This document shows, piece by piece, positions 1 to 14,697 of a DNA stretch of 49,371 nt. Numbering within the stretch: position 1 is the stretch's first letter; every line of letters begins with the position of its first letter. Under the pieces are notes generated by a model, which saw nothing but the letters and a program-made list of their open reading frames with translations, had not been told where the DNA came from and made no database searches. The position numbers and the translations under genes were made by a program. This stretch comes from Microcaldota archaeon. GTDB lineage: Archaea > Micrarchaeota > Micrarchaeia > Anstonellales > SKW190. Location: the NCBI GenBank assembly GCA_026414265.1, contig JAOAJI010000006.1, positions 1 to 49,371 on the forward strand, read 5' to 3'.

Positions 1-2423
1 GGAGAGATGTATCTAAGATTCAAATCTGGTTTACCAGTTTTGATCTTTAAGACATTTTCAAGTAAAGAATAATTGTCTTTGTCATAAGCTGATTGAAAAT
101 ATCCATTTAGCGCAACACTACCTGGCATAAATTTAGGACCTGAATAAGACTTACAATCAGCTGTTATAGGCAAAACTTTAGATACTGGATTTGAACATTC
201 ATAGGCATAGTTTCTTGTATAATTTATGGACATTTCACAACCAAAAAAGTAATCACCTGTTTTACCAGAGTGCTTACCTAACTCATGAAGCACGTCATTG
301 CCTACATCATATGGTGATTTATTCATCTCATAGAAATAAAGCAAATAATTAGTTGACCTTTGATATATTTGCTTAAGATCGATGTCAGTATCAATGTAAT
401 TAACTTTACAATTAGCTGGAATTGCATCACATACATCATTTACAGAAAAATCTTCAACTACGTTAAAACAATTATCTGGCACGTTTGAACACGATGTTCT
501 ACAACTTTCAGATAAAAAGTTAAGTGTTCCTCCTCTGTTTATCTTTGTCCTGCATTCTAAAGGACAAGCACTGTACGCCTGATCTAAGCAAGATTTTCCT
601 CCTTCTTCAACACTGAACCTGAATCTGTCAGGACAAGCATTAATGTCACAATTTACACAGTTTGGGTACAGATTTTCAGGCCTCTTTGTTTTATGTTCTC
701 TGGTATTGTTGAGCCTACAGCCCAAAGGGCACTTGAGCTTAACATCTACGTTTTCTTCTTTGAATAAGTTAGGGTCATCAGTACAATCAAGACCAGAAGA
801 AGAGAACACAAAATTAGGAATTGTATAAGCTGTATTGGTCAATGATGAAGGATGTACATTAAGATCAAAGTAACCTGGAGGGTATTTAATCCTACATTGA
901 ACAGGGCACTTGTTTGATGCTGCAGAAGAGAACCCATCTTTATTATAACAATTTTCTTCACAATATTCGAACCCAAAAACATTAGAAGAATAAGGTAAAC
1001 TGTTTTCTCTCATGTATTTTTCTCCTTCTGCCTCTCTTAAAGCAGAAGGCATGGCGGAATAATTAACTGGTGATGGAATTCTATAAGCAAAACAAAAAGA
1101 GCTGCATTTAAGGCAATTCCTCTCAAACTGCTGACATGAAGGTATATGATAAGGATAAGGGATCTCTCTACATTCTTGTGGGCATCCGTTAAAACAATCA
1201 CTCTGAACTTTATTATCAGTAATATAATATTCTTCATTTTTTATACATTGAACAAACATGCTTTTTGGCAAAGTTTTTACATTACCTGAAACATCGGTCA
1301 AAGTAATAGTAGTTGAATCATTCCAAACTTGATTTATTGTGTATGCATATACTCTGTTTACATCTTTATAGTTGTAAGGTATTGGAGATCGATTCCCCAT
1401 GGCATAATAAATCAAAAATAACTCTTTTGTGTTAGCGTTATAGCCATAGGCAAAAGGTCCTCGAACAGTGCATTCTGCTGGACAGTACGAATTATTTGAT
1501 ATACTAGAAGGATAATATGTGTCAGCCCACATTTGCCAAGCCATAACATAAGATAACGGCATAGCGATGAAAACCATTGAAGAAGCAGAAATTAATAACC
1601 CTCCTAGCTTCCTAGTCAAGAAAAAAGACCTAAATAAAATTCCTATTAAAAATAGAACTGGTGCAACATACATATAAGATATGATCAAAAAAAATTGTTG
1701 TGCTCTTATAAAAGAAATCAAAGTCATTAAATGACCGAATAAATTTTGATAACGCTTAGAAAAGAATATGTATCCTGCATTCGGTCTCTGTAATACACCA
1801 AAAAAAACACCCACCCATAAATTCGTATACCTCCCTGAAGTCTGGCTCGCTAATGAAGAGAAATGTCTACTTCTGCTTATGAATATGTCCATAAGATCAT
1901 ATGAGTAATTATAGAATCTATCCAAATAAAGCATGCTTAATATGAACGAACAATCTACATTGTTTGCTCTTATTCCAAAACTATAATACCTGTTCTCTAT
2001 GTAAGTACGCTCAACATTAGTACACTTAACAGGAACGCCATTGACATTTATCTGAACAAAATTGTCAATTGTAAGATTAATGAAAGCAATCACACCAAAA
2101 ATTGTCAGGATTATTATCATGTTTATTATAGCTTGCTTAATTTCTACTTCTGCAAAAGTTTTAACTTTATAATTTGAGAAGCTATGCCCTACTGCAAAAG
2201 CAATACCTGCTATCAAAACAGATAAAATTATAATAGCCACAGACATCTGAAAAATTAGTTCAGGACGTGAAAAATCAGCAATCTGAACATTTAAACCACT
2301 AATCACATCAGTTCTGTTATAGAAATAAGACCTTTCATACTGTGAATAAAAATTTGATATCAGAATAGTTAATGTAAAGAGTATGAACATAAAAATTATT
2401 TTTAATCTTATAAAAGCATGCAC
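1..2423 (-). CDS. Partial (runs off left edge) large polytopic membrane protein with Cys-rich extracellular regions; GTG start at 2423 or ATG at 2390
   Basis: Hand translation of the reverse strand from 2423 to 1 is open. N-term VHAFIRLKIIFMFILFTLTILISNFYSQ is signal/TM-like, followed by several hydrophobic segments and then a long Cys-rich tail. It is absent from the ORF track, presumably because it has no stop inside the window. Confidence 0.85.
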   Translation of the reverse strand, partial: MHAFIRLKIIFMFILFTLTILISNFYSQYERSYFYNRTDVISGLNVQIADFSRPELIFQMSVAIIILSVLIAGIAFAVGHSFSNYKVKTFAEVEIKQAIINMIIILTIFGVIAFINLTIDNFVQINVNGVPVKCTNVERTYIENRYYSFGIRANNVDCSFILSMLYLDRFYNYSYDLMDIFISRSRHFSSLASQTSGRYTNLWVGVFFGVLQRPNAGYIFFSKRYQNLFGHLMTLISFIRAQQFFLIISYMYVAPVLFLIGILFRSFFLTRKLGGLLISASSMVFIAMPLSYVMAWQMWADTYYPSSISNNSYCPAECTVRGPFAYGYNANTKELFLIYYAMGNRSPIPYNYKDVNRVYAYTINQVWNDSTTITLTDVSGNVKTLPKSMFVQCIKNEEYYITDNKVQSDCFNGCPQECREIPYPYHIPSCQQFERNCLKCSSFCFAYRIPSPVNYSAMPSALREAEGEKYMRENSLPYSSNVFGFEYCEENCYNKDGFSSAASNKCPVQCRIKYPPGYFDLNVHPSSLTNTAYTIPNFVFSSSGLDCTDDPNLFKEENVDVKLKCPLGCRLNNTREHKTKRPENLYPNCVNCDINACPDRFRFSVEEGGKSCLDQAYSACPLECRTKINRGGTLNFLSESCRTSCSNVPDNCFNVVEDFSVNDVCDAIPANCKVNYIDTDIDLKQIYQRSTNYLLYFYEMNKSPYDVGNDVLHELGKHSGKTGDYFFGCEMSINYTRNYAYECSNPVSKVLPITADCKSYSGPKFMPGSVALNGYFQSAYDKDNYSLLENVLKIKTGKPDLNLRYIS

Positions 2424-2429
2424 GAATAA

Positions 2430-3428
2430 TCACCATAACATATTTTCAATAAATGAATCAATCATTCTCATTCCTTTTATTAATGAATTTATTGAAATTA
2501 TAGAAAGTACAATTATTAGGTTTGGTAAAAAAAAAGCTTCAGGAAAGTACAAAGAATATTTTTCATATCTAATAAATTTATTAGACACTGAAAAGCATTC
2601 TAGAAATTCATTAGATATCAAGTCATTGATTTTGCTTTCATGAAATGCGTAGTTCGCATAAATAAAAGGCACAAAGAAATAGACAGATATTCCAATCGCA
2701 AAAAATGCGTTACCGAAATCTCTTAAACCTGGAATCAACTTAAAGATTAGCCCTATTATAAAAATCATAAGCAAGAAATTTACACTTAATAAATCTAGTA
2801 TAATTCTTTGAATGGTAATACTGACTTGTGCGGTAACCAAGAAATTTATGTATGCATCTCTAAGTATGTATGTCGCTTTATTATCAGATGAAGGTAAATC
2901 CAATCTGCCTTCTCCTTCCCAAATAAACCATCCCCTGTAAGAATATTTGGCAGAGTTGGCCCAGTTGTCAACTGCTTGGTAATTTAATTCTTTAATTAGA
3001 TTCCTTTGATAGTTATCTATTTTTTTAACAAAGTTAATGGCCACAGCATGATAGTCTATATTAGGGTCTTTTATCATTGAACAAACTGGTATGTAAATAA
3101 GATCTACTACTATAATAAGAGCTATTACCAATAAAATATAAGTTATTTCTTCTTTTACTCTTACTAGCAGATGTACATTATGTGTTGCTTGTGCAACAAT
3201 ATACAAGACGGCAGTTGTAAAAATTATAAGAAGACCTAAAACTATGACCAACCAACTTTGTTGAAAATTAACTAGGTTTATAATTATTGAGTTGTTCATA
3301 CACTGAGAAAAGTATATGTTCGCCAATGCAAAAACAAAAAATATTAGTTTAATTAAAGTAAATTTGTCAAATAACAATTTTTGAGATATTACTTTGATTG
3401 TTATTTCAGATAATCCTAGTAATCCCAT
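2430..3428 (-). CDS. Polytopic membrane protein of unknown function (332 aa), paralogous-looking to both neighbours
   Basis: ORF track; multiple hydrophobic segments; overlaps the upstream 1717-aa ORF by 23 bp; shares motif FKLIPGLRDFG..FFAIGISVYFFVP with neighbours. Confidence 0.85.
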   Translation of the reverse strand: MGLLGLSEITIKVISQKLLFDKFTLIKLIFFVFALANIYFSQCMNNSIIINLVNFQQSWLVIVLGLLIIFTTAVLYIVAQATHNVHLLVRVKEEITYILLVIALIIVVDLIYIPVCSMIKDPNIDYHAVAINFVKKIDNYQRNLIKELNYQAVDNWANSAKYSYRGWFIWEGEGRLDLPSSDNKATYILRDAYINFLVTAQVSITIQRIILDLLSVNFLLMIFIIGLIFKLIPGLRDFGNAFFAIGISVYFFVPFIYANYAFHESKINDLISNEFLECFSVSNKFIRYEKYSLYFPEAFFLPNLIIVLSIISINSLIKGMRMIDSFIENMLW

Positions 3429-6400
3429 ACAGAGTCACATCACCACTTAAAGCTATAGATATACTTCTTGCAGCACTTATTATCATGAATAGTACAATTA
3501 AATAAGTAACTAGTGTAGCAATAGAACTGTAAAGAACTACGTCCATCAACTCCTTCAATTTATCCAAATACAAGAGCCTAAAGTCGCCTTGTGCAGCCTG
3601 TGAAATATAATTGTTTAATGCAACAGACATAGCATTTGTAAATGCGTATTGCACTGAAACATAAAATAATGTAACTATCCATTTACATAGTGGATAAGGG
3701 ACCCATGGTTGCAATGGAGGGCATATAATATTTGCCCAGTTTACTTCACCTATAAAAGTAAAGACTTGTATACCTTGATTACATACTGTTCCATAGCCAG
3801 GTGGATTTGCAACAGGTGGCACCCTTGCACCACTTCGTTCAACTACATCTATATAAGCGCCAACCGTTCTTATAGAATTGCTTATGTAGTCCATCATTAA
3901 AAATTGGAAAAAATATACGCCTAAAGGCAAAAATATTTGCATTGATATAAATAGTGAAATTAACATTGTCCCTATTGAGCGAGTAAAAGGCACAACCTTA
4001 AGCATAAAACCAAATGCCAAAAGAAATAGACCAAAACCTTGTAAAATAATTAATAAAAATTTAATTGAACTGTTAAAAGCCATTAATAACAACAACTGAT
4101 TTGACAAACTTATTATACCTTCTGCAACAGGCATTAATCCAGATAATGGAGTAAGTGAATTCCAATTAGATACAAACCCAAACCTGGCGTTAGAATAATC
4201 ATATGAAAACGTAAATAATTTAACCATGTTAGCGTAGTTCTCAACTACAATATCATAAATAACTGTATAATGGAAATTAATTTGATCTAATGTAAACACT
4301 GCAAAATTTACAAAATTTGAATTGTTAGGCAAAACAAAGTTTGAAGTTATGTTAAATATCCCTAGAATAAGTATGAATTGTATTAATGAATTACCTAATT
4401 CGATAAATTCATTTCTTACAATCATTTCTAATTGGGTCATCCCCAAACCTTTTGAAACAATGTAAACAACCACAAGAGAGAACAATACACTTAAGATAAT
4501 TATTGGAAAGCAGATTGACAAAGAATTAGGGACATTAGGTATTATTGGGTTCGTTAAAGCTGGATTGTTTATATTTTTTATATTACATATGGCACGCCCG
4601 CTTGCATCTGTAACACAATTGTTTTCACAATCATATATTATATATCTTAGATTGTTGCCATCACAGGTTGCCTCTAAAATTCTATTAGTTCCATCATTGG
4701 AACACTGATCATTGTAAAAAGTTATTAAGCCATTTTCAGTGACTTTTACATAACCTAAAGTTCCAGGAGAATTGCCGTCAGAATCAACACATGTTTTAGC
4801 AATAGGATTACAAGTGAAATAAGAAAAATCTAAGGTATATGGGCATCTGGTATTTGGAGGACAAGGTTGCTCAGACCTTATAACTGAAGAAGTTATTGGA
4901 TCACAGGAATATTTAATGACACTTATTTCATTTGGTGCACAATGATCTTTGTAAACTATATTATTGTAATAGACTATTGTTCTTCCATTAACATCTGTAA
5001 GTTGAATGCAGTTATTAGGACTTACCATGTAAGTAGTTGAACCAGGCGGAGCTGCTGAACCAGGCGGAGCTGTACCACAATAAGTACCTACTGCACCTGT
5101 ATATTCTTTTGAAGCGATATTATTACCATCGCACAAGTATTCTGTTACCTTGGCTCTTCTTGTACCATCTGGGTTAACTATTTCCACGCACACATCATGT
5201 TTAATTACACCAGCAGTTTTTACATAGCCATCAGTGTATGGAGAATCACCATCCGAATCATAACAATTAATGCATCGACCTTCTATGCATAACATGTTTT
5301 GATTTCTACAATCTATATTCTGACTTTTTACTTGTAGTTCTGTCTCATCACAATAAAACTCCTTCAATACGAAGTCATTAATACAATAATCAGTTTGCCT
5401 AGTAATGGTAAGTTCATCCGAACCAGCATATAGAGACGTAAAACCTTGTTCATTTTCATCAATCCCGTTGTCATTTTCACCGCATGAAAGCACTTGACAT
5501 TCTCCTTGACGGCATATATAATTTTGTGGACAGTTAATAATCTTGTCTAAAACCTCTACAGAAGTACTAGATCTACAATAGTATTCTCTCAAAGAATTTT
5601 CATTAATACAATAATCACCATTTTCATTAACAATGTCTCCTTCTTTTTTTATACCATAAGTATTGCCTTTCTTGAATTCATTTTCGCCATCATCAGTATC
5701 TATGCACATGTCAGTAGCATAACTACTCTGTTCACACTTTCCATTATTACATAATAACCCTTCAGGACATGAATATCTCTTATAAATTAGTTTATTACCT
5801 AAGCAAGTTGCTTCATCAATTTTTCTTAAATCACTTTGAACACATTTATCTTCTATTCTTTCAGTAAGGTTCTCGGCATAACCTGCTTCAACTAAAGGAT
5901 CTGAACTTCCTGCATCGGAATCTTCACAAAAAGATTTTTTACAAGCGCCATTAACACAAAAGTAATCTTCAGGACATGATATATATTCAGAAAATATAGC
6001 ATTACTTTCATCATTACAGTAATATTCCTGTAAAATTCTTTCATTAATACATGTGTCACTTTTTGTTTCAGTTCCGTTTGAAGTAGTCCCAGATACCATA
6101 CTTGGATTTTCTGCATCAGTGTCAGAATCAATACACCTGTTTTTAGGAACACATTCTCTTTTTGTACTGTCACACACGTGATTAGTTGGACATTCCTTTT
6201 TCATTGTTAAAACTCTGTTATCGCTCCCACAGTACGTATAATTCAAAAATCTTTCATCTATACAATAATCTTGTAGTGTGACCGTTCCATTAGTCGTTCT
6301 TTTTTGGTCATCATTTCTTGTGCATTGTTGACCAAGTACACATTGACCGTTTAAACATATTTGATTTGAATCACATACCATTTGTTCTACTTTGATTATA

Positions 6401-8559
6401 CTACCATCACAATATGTTTCATTAACTGTGTTTATGTTGTGACACACATCATCTAATCTGTTAGTTGAGTTGATTGAAAAAGATGCCTGTGTCTTAACCT
6501 TGCCGTTGTCGTTATCTATACACTGATTCTGTGTAGATACACATTTACCACCAGAACATATGTGGTTAGCTGGGCAATTTAAGTCAACAAATATTGGGTT
6601 GTCATTAGAACATATTGCTTCTTTTACGAAAGTTCCACCTTCTATAGGGCAGTAGTCTGTTATTATGGTAGAGCCTTTGGCAGCTTGACTCTTAAAGTAA
6701 ATACTATTTGGACCTAAGTCTAAGTCAACACATTGAGTATTAGCCACGCATCTACCATTATAACATAATTTATTTTCTCCACAATAAAATACCTCATAGG
6801 TTGCACTTTGACTACAAAAGCTCTCTGCAATATGAGTAGCGTTGACACATGAATCGAAATATGCAAAATCTTTGTCAGCAGTCTCTCCATATACATCAAG
6901 TATTTTACCTCCATCAGTATCTACGCATTCACCAAAACCAAGGTGTCTACATTTTCCTGATTGACAAATCATGTCACTTGCAATACAATCATACAAAGAA
7001 GAAGTAGGATTGCCATTAGAACAATAACTTTCGTTTATGTAAAATAAATTGTAACAAGAATCCTTCATGATAATGTTGTCTTTCTTTGCTTCACCATAAA
7101 CAGTAAGCTGGATACCTCCATCAGTATCTACACATTGATTGTAAACACACCTTCCACCAGAAGAATCTTGTAAACAAGCTCCATTATCGCACGATAAATT
7201 AGTAGAAATAATCACATTACCACTACAAGTGTATTCAGTTACGTGTGTGGAGTTCACGCACTTGTCTGTAAAAGAATGAGTCGTATTCGATACTGTCCCT
7301 ACTATATTCTTGTCATTACCATCAGTATCTGAACAAAGGCTGAGTGGGATACATCTTCCATTATCACATTTGTAATTTTCTGGACAGGTAGTATCTACAC
7401 TTCTAACGATAAATTGATCACAATAACCTTTTCTGATAGCTCGCACGTCTGACTCAGACAAACAATGATCAGTAAACGAATATCCAGAACTGTTGGATGT
7501 TGTTCTTTGTGTGTATAAATCAGGTGCTGATGGTCCTATACAATAGCCACAAAAAGCAGGAGAACTTTCGGAACCAAACCACGTAGAACATAAATAACCA
7601 TCTGGACAGGATAAAATAGCTTCCTTAATTGTTCTATCCGTGTTACATGAATATTCTCTAATTTTGGTAGAATCTATACAAATGTCATATTTTATTTGTG
7701 TTTCGTTGCTTGTTTTTCCAGGCAAAGTAACGGTTAAACCGTTATCTGTATCGGTACACGATACTTCTCTACATCTTCCGTCTTCACAAATATAGCCACT
7801 TGGACAATCCTGATTTGTAAATTTGATATTGTTATTAGCATCACAATAAAACTCCTGAACTCTGGTAGCACTCAAGCACACATCATTACTTGTAGATCCG
7901 CCTTTTGTTACGCTACCTTTATTGTATATATCTATACCATTATCTGTATCGCTGCATGTGTTTATATTGATACACTTTCCATTTGAGCACATCTCACCAG
8001 ATCCTGGACAATATATATGCTCTGAATTCAATTCCTTTTTCCACGAGAAGCCATCAAAAACATACTCACAATAATACTCATTCAGTTTAGCGTCTTGACA
8101 GAAATCTGAATAAGAAACGTAACCGTTACTAGCAGTACCTTTGTTATAATAATCTTTGCCTCCATCAGTATCAGTACAAACACTGCTTGGATCTATACAT
8201 GCAGAAGTACCATCAGAATAAGTTCTACACTGATAAGGAGAATTACATGACGTTGGTGCAGTCATAAGATCAAATTTGTTAGTTTTTGGCTTATTGTCTG
8301 AATAAAAACAATCGGCAGTACATAAACAATAGTATAATAAAGAGCACGTGTTACTATAAGTTACTCCATTTGCTATTATCTTTCCTGCAGAAGTGTCAGT
8401 AGGTTTTGTATAGATTATAGCATAATAAATAGGGTGGCCATATACATCAACGAACCTTTGATACCCAGGAGCCACATCACATTGTGCGTAAAGTAAATTT
8501 AAGGAAAACAGAAAAAATAGTAAGCACACTAATTCTATTGATTTAAGAGAAACCAACAT
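3406..8559 (-). CDS. Giant secreted/membrane protein: signal peptide, about 17 Cys-rich repeats (C-x-D-[TS]-D-[GN]...), C-terminal polytopic membrane domain
   Basis: 1717-aa ORF; N-term MLVSLKSIELVCLLFFLFSLNLLYAQC; repeated CxDTDGG...DxC...EYYC...CPxGYxCxxGxC units; C-terminal multi-TM block. Confidence 0.92.
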   Translation of the reverse strand: MLVSLKSIELVCLLFFLFSLNLLYAQCDVAPGYQRFVDVYGHPIYYAIIYTKPTDTSAGKIIANGVTYSNTCSLLYYCLCTADCFYSDNKPKTNKFDLMTAPTSCNSPYQCRTYSDGTSACIDPSSVCTDTDGGKDYYNKGTASNGYVSYSDFCQDAKLNEYYCEYVFDGFSWKKELNSEHIYCPGSGEMCSNGKCININTCSDTDNGIDIYNKGSVTKGGSTSNDVCLSATRVQEFYCDANNNIKFTNQDCPSGYICEDGRCREVSCTDTDNGLTVTLPGKTSNETQIKYDICIDSTKIREYSCNTDRTIKEAILSCPDGYLCSTWFGSESSPAFCGYCIGPSAPDLYTQRTTSNSSGYSFTDHCLSESDVRAIRKGYCDQFIVRSVDTTCPENYKCDNGRCIPLSLCSDTDGNDKNIVGTVSNTTHSFTDKCVNSTHVTEYTCSGNVIISTNLSCDNGACLQDSSGGRCVYNQCVDTDGGIQLTVYGEAKKDNIIMKDSCYNLFYINESYCSNGNPTSSLYDCIASDMICQSGKCRHLGFGECVDTDGGKILDVYGETADKDFAYFDSCVNATHIAESFCSQSATYEVFYCGENKLCYNGRCVANTQCVDLDLGPNSIYFKSQAAKGSTIITDYCPIEGGTFVKEAICSNDNPIFVDLNCPANHICSGGKCVSTQNQCIDNDNGKVKTQASFSINSTNRLDDVCHNINTVNETYCDGSIIKVEQMVCDSNQICLNGQCVLGQQCTRNDDQKRTTNGTVTLQDYCIDERFLNYTYCGSDNRVLTMKKECPTNHVCDSTKRECVPKNRCIDSDTDAENPSMVSGTTSNGTETKSDTCINERILQEYYCNDESNAIFSEYISCPEDYFCVNGACKKSFCEDSDAGSSDPLVEAGYAENLTERIEDKCVQSDLRKIDEATCLGNKLIYKRYSCPEGLLCNNGKCEQSSYATDMCIDTDDGENEFKKGNTYGIKKEGDIVNENGDYCINENSLREYYCRSSTSVEVLDKIINCPQNYICRQGECQVLSCGENDNGIDENEQGFTSLYAGSDELTITRQTDYCINDFVLKEFYCDETELQVKSQNIDCRNQNMLCIEGRCINCYDSDGDSPYTDGYVKTAGVIKHDVCVEIVNPDGTRRAKVTEYLCDGNNIASKEYTGAVGTYCGTAPPGSAAPPGSTTYMVSPNNCIQLTDVNGRTIVYYNNIVYKDHCAPNEISVIKYSCDPITSSVIRSEQPCPPNTRCPYTLDFSYFTCNPIAKTCVDSDGNSPGTLGYVKVTENGLITFYNDQCSNDGTNRILEATCDGNNLRYIIYDCENNCVTDASGRAICNIKNINNPALTNPIIPNVPNSLSICFPIIILSVLFSLVVVYIVSKGLGMTQLEMIVRNEFIELGNSLIQFILILGIFNITSNFVLPNNSNFVNFAVFTLDQINFHYTVIYDIVVENYANMVKLFTFSYDYSNARFGFVSNWNSLTPLSGLMPVAEGIISLSNQLLLLMAFNSSIKFLLIILQGFGLFLLAFGFMLKVVPFTRSIGTMLISLFISMQIFLPLGVYFFQFLMMDYISNSIRTVGAYIDVVERSGARVPPVANPPGYGTVCNQGIQVFTFIGEVNWANIICPPLQPWVPYPLCKWIVTLFYVSVQYAFTNAMSVALNNYISQAAQGDFRLLYLDKLKELMDVVLYSSIATLVTYLIVLFMIISAARSISIALSGDVTLYGITRII
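4580..8178 (-). repeat. Protein-level tandem repeat region, about 17 Cys-rich units of roughly 60-85 aa inside the 1717-aa ORF
   Basis: Units begin CTDTDGGKDYYNKGT, CSDTDNGIDIYNKGS, CTDTDNGLTVTLPGK, CSDTDGNDKNIVGT, CVDTDGGIQLTVYGE, CVDTDGGKILDVYGE, CVDSDGNSPGTLGY etc. Confidence 0.9.
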
Positions 8560-12308: not shown

Positions 12309-13244
12309 CTACTTTTTTTGAGGCTTATTATCCTGTTGGCCAATATTTGTATCAGGATTTGCTATGTTTTTACTGAGTTTCTCTAGCATAGCTGTAAATT
12401 CCATAGGGATAACAAATTTCGTTGATGGTGCTTTTCCAACTTCTTCAAGTGCTTTTAACTGCCATAAAGTTAAGGCAGATCCCCTTAAGTAATTGTTTGC
12501 TGCATCAGCCACTATCCTTATGCTTTCTGCCTCTCCTTTAGCGAGTATAATTTTAGCCTGTCTTTGACCCTCGCTTTTCAATATTTCAGCTTCTTTCTGA
12601 CCCTCTGCTTCAAGAATAGCGCTCTGCCTGTTTCCTTCTGCCTCTAAAATCATCGCTCTTTTCGTTCTCTCAGCAGCCATTTGTTTGGTCATAGCATCTC
12701 TTATTGGTGCTGGTGGTTCTATCTCTTTTATTTCTACTGCTTCAGCCTTAACACCCCACTTGTCAGTAGATTCATCTAAAGTTTCTCTCAGTTTAGTGTT
12801 TATTACCTCTCTTTTTGAAAGGCAATCATCCAAGTTCATGTCACCTATGATGCTTCTCAAGGTAGTCTGAGCTAACCTGATAGTGGCATGCTGGAAATCC
12901 TCTACCTCTAAAACAACTCTTTGTGGGTCTATGACCCTGTAATAAATGACTGCGTCTACACCTACAGTAGCGTTGTCTTTAGTAATTACATCCTGCCTAG
13001 GCACTTCAAGGGTCTTTATTCTCAAATCAGTTATGCGCATCTCTTCAATAAATGGAATAACTATGACTAATCCAGGGCCATAAACACCTGCAAATTTTCC
13101 AAGTGTGAACTTGACTCCCCTTTCGTACTCTTTCAATACTCTAACTGAAATCGCCATTAAAACTACAAAACCTAAAGCAACGCCAATAACACATATAGTC
13201 GTTACCATATCATTGTCACCTTGTTGACATGAACATACAATCAT
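12309..13244 (-). CDS. SPFH/Band 7 (stomatin-like) protein; true start possibly 13208
   Basis: EYERGVKFTLGKFAGVYGPGLVIVIPFIEEMRITDLRIKTLEVPRQDVITKDNATVGVDAVIYYRV; AEAE/EGQ-rich coiled coil. Confidence 0.93.
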   Translation of the reverse strand: MIVCSCQQGDNDMVTTICVIGVALGFVVLMAISVRVLKEYERGVKFTLGKFAGVYGPGLVIVIPFIEEMRITDLRIKTLEVPRQDVITKDNATVGVDAVIYYRVIDPQRVVLEVEDFQHATIRLAQTTLRSIIGDMNLDDCLSKREVINTKLRETLDESTDKWGVKAEAVEIKEIEPPAPIRDAMTKQMAAERTKRAMILEAEGNRQSAILEAEGQKEAEILKSEGQRQAKIILAKGEAESIRIVADAANNYLRGSALTLWQLKALEEVGKAPSTKFVIPMEFTAMLEKLSKNIANPDTNIGQQDNKPQKK

Positions 13245-13257
13245 TAAAATTTTTTTA

Positions 13258-14697
13258 TTATTCTTGACCTTCTATTCCTTTCAAGCTATTTGAAAGTCCT
13301 TTAACATCCATCGGTAAAATTACATTTGTTTTTTCTGAAGAATTTAGTTTTTTCCACGTGTCTAATTCCCAAATTGTCAAGGCCACTCCACGCAATAACC
13401 TCATAGCTTCTTCTGAAATTATTTTAATGCTTTCAGCCTCTCCGTTAGCCAAGTTAACTTTAGCTTTTGCTATTCCTTCTGCAACTATTTCATATGATCG
13501 TTTTATTCCATCTGCGTTAATTATAGAAACTTCTCTCCTGCCTTCGCTTTCTATTATAATTGCTCGTTTAGTTCTCTCAGCCTTTATTTGTGTCATCAAC
13601 GCGTTTAATAAATTTTCGTCTATTGGTCTGATTCTGCCTATTTCAGCGTTTATGAACTCTATACCCCAATCGTGGCCATAATCAACTAACGAATCCCTAA
13701 TTCTTTTGTTTATCTCTTCCCTGTTGGTGTTTAAGTAATCAAATTCCATTGACCCTACTATGGACCTTAAAGCTGTCAAAGTAATGTTGATTGTAGCTAA
13801 TTCGTAAGTTGCAACAGAAAGTATAGTTTTACTCACGTCAACTATTCTGTAATAGATAGCAACTTCAATCAAAACATTTGCGTTGTCTTTTGTAATAACT
13901 TTTTGTAATGGCACTTCAATAGTGTGAATCCTCTTATCTGCTGCAGCTACTACATCCAGCAAAGGGATTATGAAGTTAAAACCTGGATTTAATTTTCTGA
14001 TCAATCTTCCAAATCTGAAGATTAAACCTTCTTCATATTGCATTACAACTACAAAAGACCTCATGATTAACAGAAATATTAGAGAGAAAAGTAGAGTAAT
14101 CATGAGCGGCACTGTTTTATTTAAATAAATTAGAAAAGCCAAAGGAAAAAATGAATAAACAACAAGCTTGAACCCCCTATACTGTCTTCTTTCTAAGTGG
14201 AAATCAATACCGTGAACTACAAAATGGGCTGATAAAAACGTAATATAACTCTCTAACATGTATTGGTAATTGAAAAAAAACAAGTACATGAGAATAAACA
14301 GAGAAATTGTCATGTCCTTGATAAAATGATTAACTCTGACTCTGTAGAAAGGAAGAAATGCTACTAATAAAACTAATGAAATGAAGAAAAAATGATTATA
14401 AATATGCATTTTAGCTACATCTATAATAACTGCTAAAACAGGCATAAGTAAAAGAGGCACAAAAGTCCTTAGTGAAGGATATAAAGAATGATAACTCCAA
14501 CTCTCTCTAATAAGGTCAGCTGACCTAGGTTCATTTGCAGGTCTGTCAACATAAATCACTCTTTTATATGGCTTGTATACATTATACATTTTGGAAGTAA
14601 ACAAAGTATCAGAAATCATATCTGAAGAAGTGTTGCTTGAAGTTTGAGTTTGCTTGCTTTCAGCAGTTTTTTGCTTTTTACTCATATAATTAATCAT
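13258..14697 (-). CDS. SPFH/Band 7 protein with extra multi-transmembrane N-terminal region
   Basis: C-terminal half QYEEGLIFRFGRLIRKLNPGFNFIIPLLDVVAAADKRIHTIEVPLQKVITKDNANVLIEVAIYYRIV; N-terminal ~200 aa with several hydrophobic stretches. Confidence 0.9.
   Translation of the reverse strand: MINYMSKKQKTAESKQTQTSSNTSSDMISDTLFTSKMYNVYKPYKRVIYVDRPANEPRSADLIRESWSYHSLYPSLRTFVPLLLMPVLAVIIDVAKMHIYNHFFFISLVLLVAFLPFYRVRVNHFIKDMTISLFILMYLFFFNYQYMLESYITFLSAHFVVHGIDFHLERRQYRGFKLVVYSFFPLAFLIYLNKTVPLMITLLFSLIFLLIMRSFVVVMQYEEGLIFRFGRLIRKLNPGFNFIIPLLDVVAAADKRIHTIEVPLQKVITKDNANVLIEVAIYYRIVDVSKTILSVATYELATINITLTALRSIVGSMEFDYLNTNREEINKRIRDSLVDYGHDWGIEFINAEIGRIRPIDENLLNALMTQIKAERTKRAIIIESEGRREVSIINADGIKRSYEIVAEGIAKAKVNLANGEAESIKIISEEAMRLLRGVALTIWELDTWKKLNSSEKTNVILPMDVKGLSNSLKGIEGQE

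Follow-up and report, generated by a model that had tools for sequence, protein, structure and literature searches.

In archaea, the Ced and Ted systems (CedA, CedA1, CedB; TedA, TedC, TedB), found in Sulfolobales and Thermoproteales, combine a VirB2-like pilin, a polytopic VirB6-like protein, and a CedB/VirB4-like ATPase, and a resemblance between CedA and CedA1 has been reported (PMC9905601). In bacteria, the rvh type IV secretion system (T4SS) of Rickettsiales, which are intimate cell associates, has VirB6 paralogs that lie in tandem beside VirB4, are highly diverged, and carry large extensions; there are five in Rickettsiaceae and four in Anaplasmataceae (PMC2653234, PMC7648143). The VirB6 assembly of R388 is a pentamer (PMC9259494). 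Patescibacteria (CPR) keep a T4SS-like core across a phylum of ultrasmall epibionts and have pilin arrays (PMC12102498). SPEARE-like proteins of nanohaloarchaea, which have been proposed to act in host contact, link giant domains outside the cell to a VirB4/TraG-like ATPase (PMC10266531). In ARM-1, cryo-tomography has shown a barrel of ~21 nm in the Micrarchaeota envelope at the docking site of a host nanotube (PMC11329633).

It is an open question how DPANN archaea make physical contact with their hosts and draw nutrition from them, and the operon described in this study bears on it. No account of a Micrarchaeota T4SS or of a six-VirB6 set was found in the open-licence literature; the Ced/Ted paper mentions neither DPANN nor Micrarchaeota, and Ced/Ted from DPANN is unreported in the open-licence literature found. 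The window, which is the whole stretch of DNA analysed (49,371 nucleotides), is an entire contig (C83) of a genome of 1.18 Mb, 91% complete, from the Micrarchaeota, a phylum whose members are tiny symbionts. The operon that begins in it quite probably encodes a T4SS/Ced-like membrane complex for translocation at a contact site, with six paralogous P proteins in the VirB6/CedA position.

Operon Organization

Open reading frames called with a simple script give three genes on the minus strand: gene A (3406..8559, 1717 aa), gene B (2430..3428, 332 aa), and gene C (3..2423, at least 807 aa), the last of which, as a feature, spans 1..2423 and has lost its 3' end at the contig edge. Genes A and B share 23 nt, and 6 nt separate B from C. 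The sizes, coordinates, and shared strand given in the earlier note are therefore right, and the tight packing and overlap that it took as a co-expression layout are present; its description of a three-gene cassette, however, reflects an artefact of the contig end, since the unit consists of six paralogs plus two further genes. Genes A, B, and C are P1, P2, and P3, the first three genes of an eight-gene operon in which six paralogs are followed by S7, a giant Cys-rich protein that is either secreted or anchored, with another giant protein, S8, next to it.

Leftward extension, advised in the earlier note as a way to find more paralogs, leads to the end of another contig of the same genome (C50), where the operon resumes with the C-terminus of P3 (200 aa, ...LGGDIDIPGIGKVI), P4 (360 aa), P5 (342 aa), P6 (389 aa), and S7 (1498 aa); an S8-like gene (2396 aa) adjoins S7 on the opposite strand. 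The ends of C50 and C83 were compared for overlap and share no sequence, so a gap of unknown size lies between them and the join rests on the N- and C-terminal parts of P3 together with gene order.

Relatives of P2 are present in 55 of the 59 genomes of the same taxonomic order, several per genome and clustered. The layout common to the 20 loci read is P1, P2, P3, P4, P5, P6, S7, and often S8, and this order is fixed across the phylum, a positive outcome for the synteny check proposed earlier. In these 20 loci P1 has ~410 aa, P2 ~325 aa, P3 650-1580 aa, and P4, P5, and P6 325-1115 aa; a Cys-rich loop separates the last two transmembrane segments (TMs) of P3; S7 has 1000-1850 aa, one N-terminal TM, and 30-105 Cys; and S8, frequently downstream, has 1100-2100 aa. 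Large variable ectodomains had been noticed in the window, and between genomes both their size and their carrier do differ: the carrier is P1 here, with 1717 aa, and P2, P4, or P5 elsewhere, which is the variation expected of partner recognition. In many genomes there is also a second six-gene cluster, whose ectodomains are smaller; in this genome it lies on contig C30, where the contig end falls after P5.

A Pfam scan of S7 and S8 found no domain. The S8-like proteins (L189:2241-9431, which is C50 of this genome, and L124:13939-19542) are 1900-2400 aa long, lack any Pfam domain, and have a conserved YASGRNP(L)SxFD stretch as well as two hydrophobic segments; their genes adjoin six-gene clusters, either main or second ones. 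Elsewhere in the window (12309-14697), genes for two Band_7/SPFH-domain proteins of 311 and 479 aa lie next to each other on the same strand.

Sequence Features of P1, P2, and P3

The three window proteins have the membrane module in different places: at the end of P1, as the whole of P2, and at the start of P3. P1, which falls in the position-1 clade of the P family tree, has a signal-peptide-like N-terminus, a giant Cys-rich ectodomain (4540..8484, minus strand; aa ~26-1340), and a C-terminal membrane module (3406..4527, minus strand) with five hydrophobic segments by TM scan that is homologous to P2-P6 and to a singleton family; the protein has 113 Cys in all. The ectodomain contains the motif C-x-D-x-D 14 times at spacings of ~63-75 aa, with three larger gaps, and most repeats end with a C..CxxGxC motif, the repeat form being C-x-D-T-D-x-G ... 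CPxxYxCxxGxC. BLASTP with the ectodomain against all fetched Micrarchaeota loci gave no match, so it is particular to the P1 of this genome among these relatives. P2 is a minimal membrane module with six hydrophobic segments, seen in aligned orthologs, and its structure model has a mean pLDDT of 79 and a pTM of 0.71. P3 has a Cys-rich loop (3..1496, minus strand) between TM5 and the last TM, with CPxxCR repeats and 33 Cys, and the CPxxC motif of this loop is kept in orthologs.

The conserved basic motif after a TM that the earlier note pointed out is borne out, with one copy of [FL][KR]xx[PF]xxRxxG in each of the three proteins, all on the minus strand. These copies are LKVVPFTRSIG in P1 (3961..4002, aa 1520), FKLIPGLRDFGN in P2 (FKLIPGLRDFG; 2703..2744, aa 229), and FRSFFLTRKLGG in P3 (FRSFFLTRKLG; 1593..1634, aa 264), where the family hallmark is [VIL][LF]R[ST]FFxTRK. 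A Pfam scan of the three window proteins gave nothing above the cut-off, and a Claudin_2 identity was rejected, the match being weak and below the cut-off.

Paralogy and Subfamilies

P1-P6 are paralogous proteins with 5-7 TMs. All 15 pairs are homologous in hhalign comparisons of ortholog profiles (probability 99.6-99.9, E 8e-25 to 6e-37), including the pairs in the window: A/B with E=5e-30, A/C with 2e-31, and B/C with 5e-30, at probabilities of 99.8-99.9. Three unrelated polytopic families (five or more TMs) from the same genomes, used as a control, gave probabilities below 2 and E>0.02 against the P profiles. The proposal of one membrane module shared despite different ectodomains is thus confirmed. 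The singleton profile is also homologous to every P1-P6 profile (E 1e-20 to 2e-27).

The P family is present in 259 of 296 Micrarchaeota genomes and in 89 of the 97 of high quality, and in a search across 85,462 species every match with an organism name was from Micrarchaeota or was Micrarchaeota-like (“ainarchaeum” label). When only distinct clusters complete in the sequence read were counted, with duplicate loci from the same genomes removed, 40 had six P copies and 17 had one; nine others, with two, four, five, or seven copies, look mostly frameshifted or truncated. Trees were built from 147 membrane cores, with a maximum-likelihood tree of 91, sampling main clusters, second clusters, family f17, families f12/f13, and singletons; subfamily labels came from HMMs trained on main clusters and a few seed proteins. 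On the maximum-likelihood tree the seven labels (six positions and the singleton) need six changes, which is the minimum, while shuffled labels average 62. Support is 99/95 for position 3, 100/97 for position 5, 97/95 for position 6, 100/100 for singletons, 94/95 for position 2, and a weak 47/71 for position 1; position 4 is split, and long branches were marked as such. Genes A, B, and C belong to positions 1, 2, and 3, and on this phylogeny each operon position is an ancient subfamily.

Gene Context and Alternative Functions

The earlier note guessed at TrbL/VirB6-type proteins, and it is gene context that speaks for this. Single-copy P genes lie in a cassette with the order small VirB2-like pilin (2-3 TMs), P, a protein with 1-2 TMs (TM2), and a CedB/VirB4-type ATPase, the ATPase being near 12 of the 17 singletons. 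All 15 pilin-like proteins match Pfam T4SS_pilin (best 1.5e-7) and seven of the 15 match TrbC; R388 VirB2 matches the pilin profile with E=4.5e-6. The ATPases match HerA, CedB, CedD, and VirB4 models, and NCBIfam CedB at 1.5e-26, 1.2e-22, and 1e-18; a PilT/GspE-type ATPase, as in type IV pili or type II secretion, is absent from the operon. Pilins adjoin both singletons and six-gene sets in several lineages. Context and topology suggest that P proteins are VirB6/CedA-position proteins, forming a membrane pore.

The closest ATPase models, CedB and CedD, would also suit a T4SS/Ced-derived system of DNA exchange (conjugation or competence) among Micrarchaeota or from hosts, in which the ectodomains serve species recognition alone and have no role in symbiosis. 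Saccharolobus CedA and CedE are paired paralogs required for DNA import (PMC11868833), and Mia14 swaps genes extensively with its host (PMC5498576). However, in many genomes a single-copy Ced-like cassette exists separately from the one or two six-gene operons, which makes a different job probable for the six-gene form, and a cost of ~20 kb in genomes of ~1 Mb, together with retention across the phylum, fits an essential role in host contact better, although this is not decisive. DNA exchange as the function of the six-gene operon is an unlikely reading, but one to be taken seriously.

The VirB4/FtsK/HerA-type ATPase sought since the earlier note is inside the operon in two other lineages but is unlinked in this genome. 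In family f17 (L093, L096, L098, L136) and in single-contig genomes of f12/f13 (L192, L193, L196), two TM2 genes and then the ATPase come after the six P genes, and pilins usually precede them; the six-gene set there takes the place that P has in the singleton cassette. In the window's own taxonomic order, six-gene operons have no ATPase or pilin alongside. This genome has a pilin-P-TM2-ATPase cassette on contig C24 and a TM2-ATPase pair on contig C72, neither ATPase being linked to the window operon; the C72 ATPase groups with those of six-gene operons (support 100/99).

Linkage in the window's order to giant S7/S8, rather than to an ATPase, and the very large and variable ectodomains would also suit an anchor for a surface layer or adhesin, in which a T4SS pore family has been reused as a static scaffold for giant Cys-rich proteins and nothing is translocated. 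Such a scaffold is improbable: orthologs of the C72 ATPase, the one of the six-gene-operon clade, are kept, though unlinked, in nearly all of 39 relatives in the order (most at ~55-65% identity), and the ATPase is inside the operon in f17 and f12/f13.

In L194 (14134-17382; G074), six P and two TM2 genes are followed by a 520-aa gene without an ATPase match, so the ATPase of that operon must be elsewhere. On C30 of this genome, a protein of 712 aa (L123:10963-13101, minus strand) combines SLT transglycosylase and M23 peptidase domains; it is encoded divergently from the second six-gene cluster, 50 bp away. Three more SLT-domain genes are in tandem on C39 (50195-52226). Micrarchaeota are not known to make murein; the SLT/M23 murein hydrolase could have a bacterial partner as its target or could be a component like VirB1. 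It was rejected as a standard VirB1 part, with SLT in just 15 of 39 relatives and with flanks in G003 and G027 that show S8-like genes and no obvious VirB1.

Direct Comparison with VirB6 and TrbL

The other half of the TrbL/VirB6 guess, a recognisable likeness of the proteins themselves, found no match in Pfam, profile, or Foldseek comparisons. Pfam TrbL (PF04610) has no match in the whole genome, and hhalign of P gave a probability of at most 2 with R388-type VirB6 and at most 11 with monoderm CD1112 VirB6. In the same test two accepted VirB6 families gave a probability of only 22 with each other; they barely match, so the negative profile results are not evidence of absence. Profile searches of P2 and singletons against the PDB gave no credible match, and Foldseek, recommended earlier together with structure models, found nothing at E<=0.001 for P2 (pLDDT 79, good) or a singleton (pLDDT 73, fair), only generic helical bundles; for P2, VirB6 7o3v_J had rank 44 with E 4.4 and TM 0.30, which is not significant. 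The place of the P family as VirB6/CedA is taken from its matching neighbours, namely pilin, TM2, and CedB/VirB4 ATPase. An unrelated polytopic transporter family near T4SS-like genes by chance would explain why VirB6 and TrbL are not matched directly, but is very improbable, since the same four-part order comes back both in singletons that are divergent and, in two other lineages, around the six-gene set.

Proposed Mechanism

For a complex of the T4SS/Ced type, the most likely course is that one VirB6/CedA-position protein became six, to which giant ectodomains were added, giving a hetero-hexameric pore at the contact site. Single-copy P would form a homo-oligomeric pore, while P1-P6 would form one ring-like hetero-hexameric pore with every subunit in a fixed place. 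The unlinked VirB4-like ATPase on C72, acting from inside, may power transport or assembly. The Cys-rich ectodomains of P1, P3, and S7 are predicted to project outside the membrane, probably disulphide-bonded, and together with S7/S8 may form a collar that passes through the S-layer and either recognises a partner cell or docks onto it, so that the complex would move macromolecules between symbiont and partner.

A more specific proposal, made tentatively, is that a VirB6-type pore with one each of P1-P6, six-fold where the bacterial stalk is five-fold and collared by giant Cys-rich ectodomains and S7/S8, is a translocon dedicated to host contact and might correspond to the ~21 nm barrel of ARM-1, for which the P1-P6 complex is a candidate. 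Six genes need not mean a hexamer, because the VirB6 assembly solved for R388 is a pentamer (PMC9259494). A step from one pore subunit to six fixed ones would parallel the homo- to hetero-oligomeric ring step in other machines, and it predicts that five-fold symmetry gave way to six-fold. The operon is phylum-wide and easily recognised, and its named parts (six paralogs in fixed order, pilin, VirB4-like ATPase, and giant ectodomains) can be sought in existing cryo-tomograms, where a barrel is already visible in a Micrarchaeota envelope.

Comparison with Known Systems

The SPEARE-like proteins come from another DPANN phylum and share giant extracellular domains tied to an ATPase, but each is one fused protein with Ig-like repeats, and a six-paralog membrane set is not described for them. 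The Patescibacteria T4SS is likewise kept across its phylum, but has one VirB6, VirB4 and VirB3/PrgI homologs, and tandem VirB2, without a six-paralog set. Ced/Ted is archaeal and has the same three kinds of component, and the N-terminal stretch of P resembles pilin, weakly, as CedA resembles CedA1; however, CedA is one protein (two with CedE), while in Micrarchaeota there are six paralogs in fixed positions, of which some carry giant Cys-rich ectodomains, together with S7/S8. The rvh system is bacterial, with four or five copies and a recognisable VirB6/TrbL domain, whereas the P family is archaeal, has six members, and lacks a TrbL match; unlike those of rvh, its extensions are mainly Cys-rich and are found on P1 and P3 (sometimes P2, P4, or P5). 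The four to five tandem VirB6 paralogs of the Rickettsiales are the nearest parallel to the six paralogs of the Micrarchaeota.
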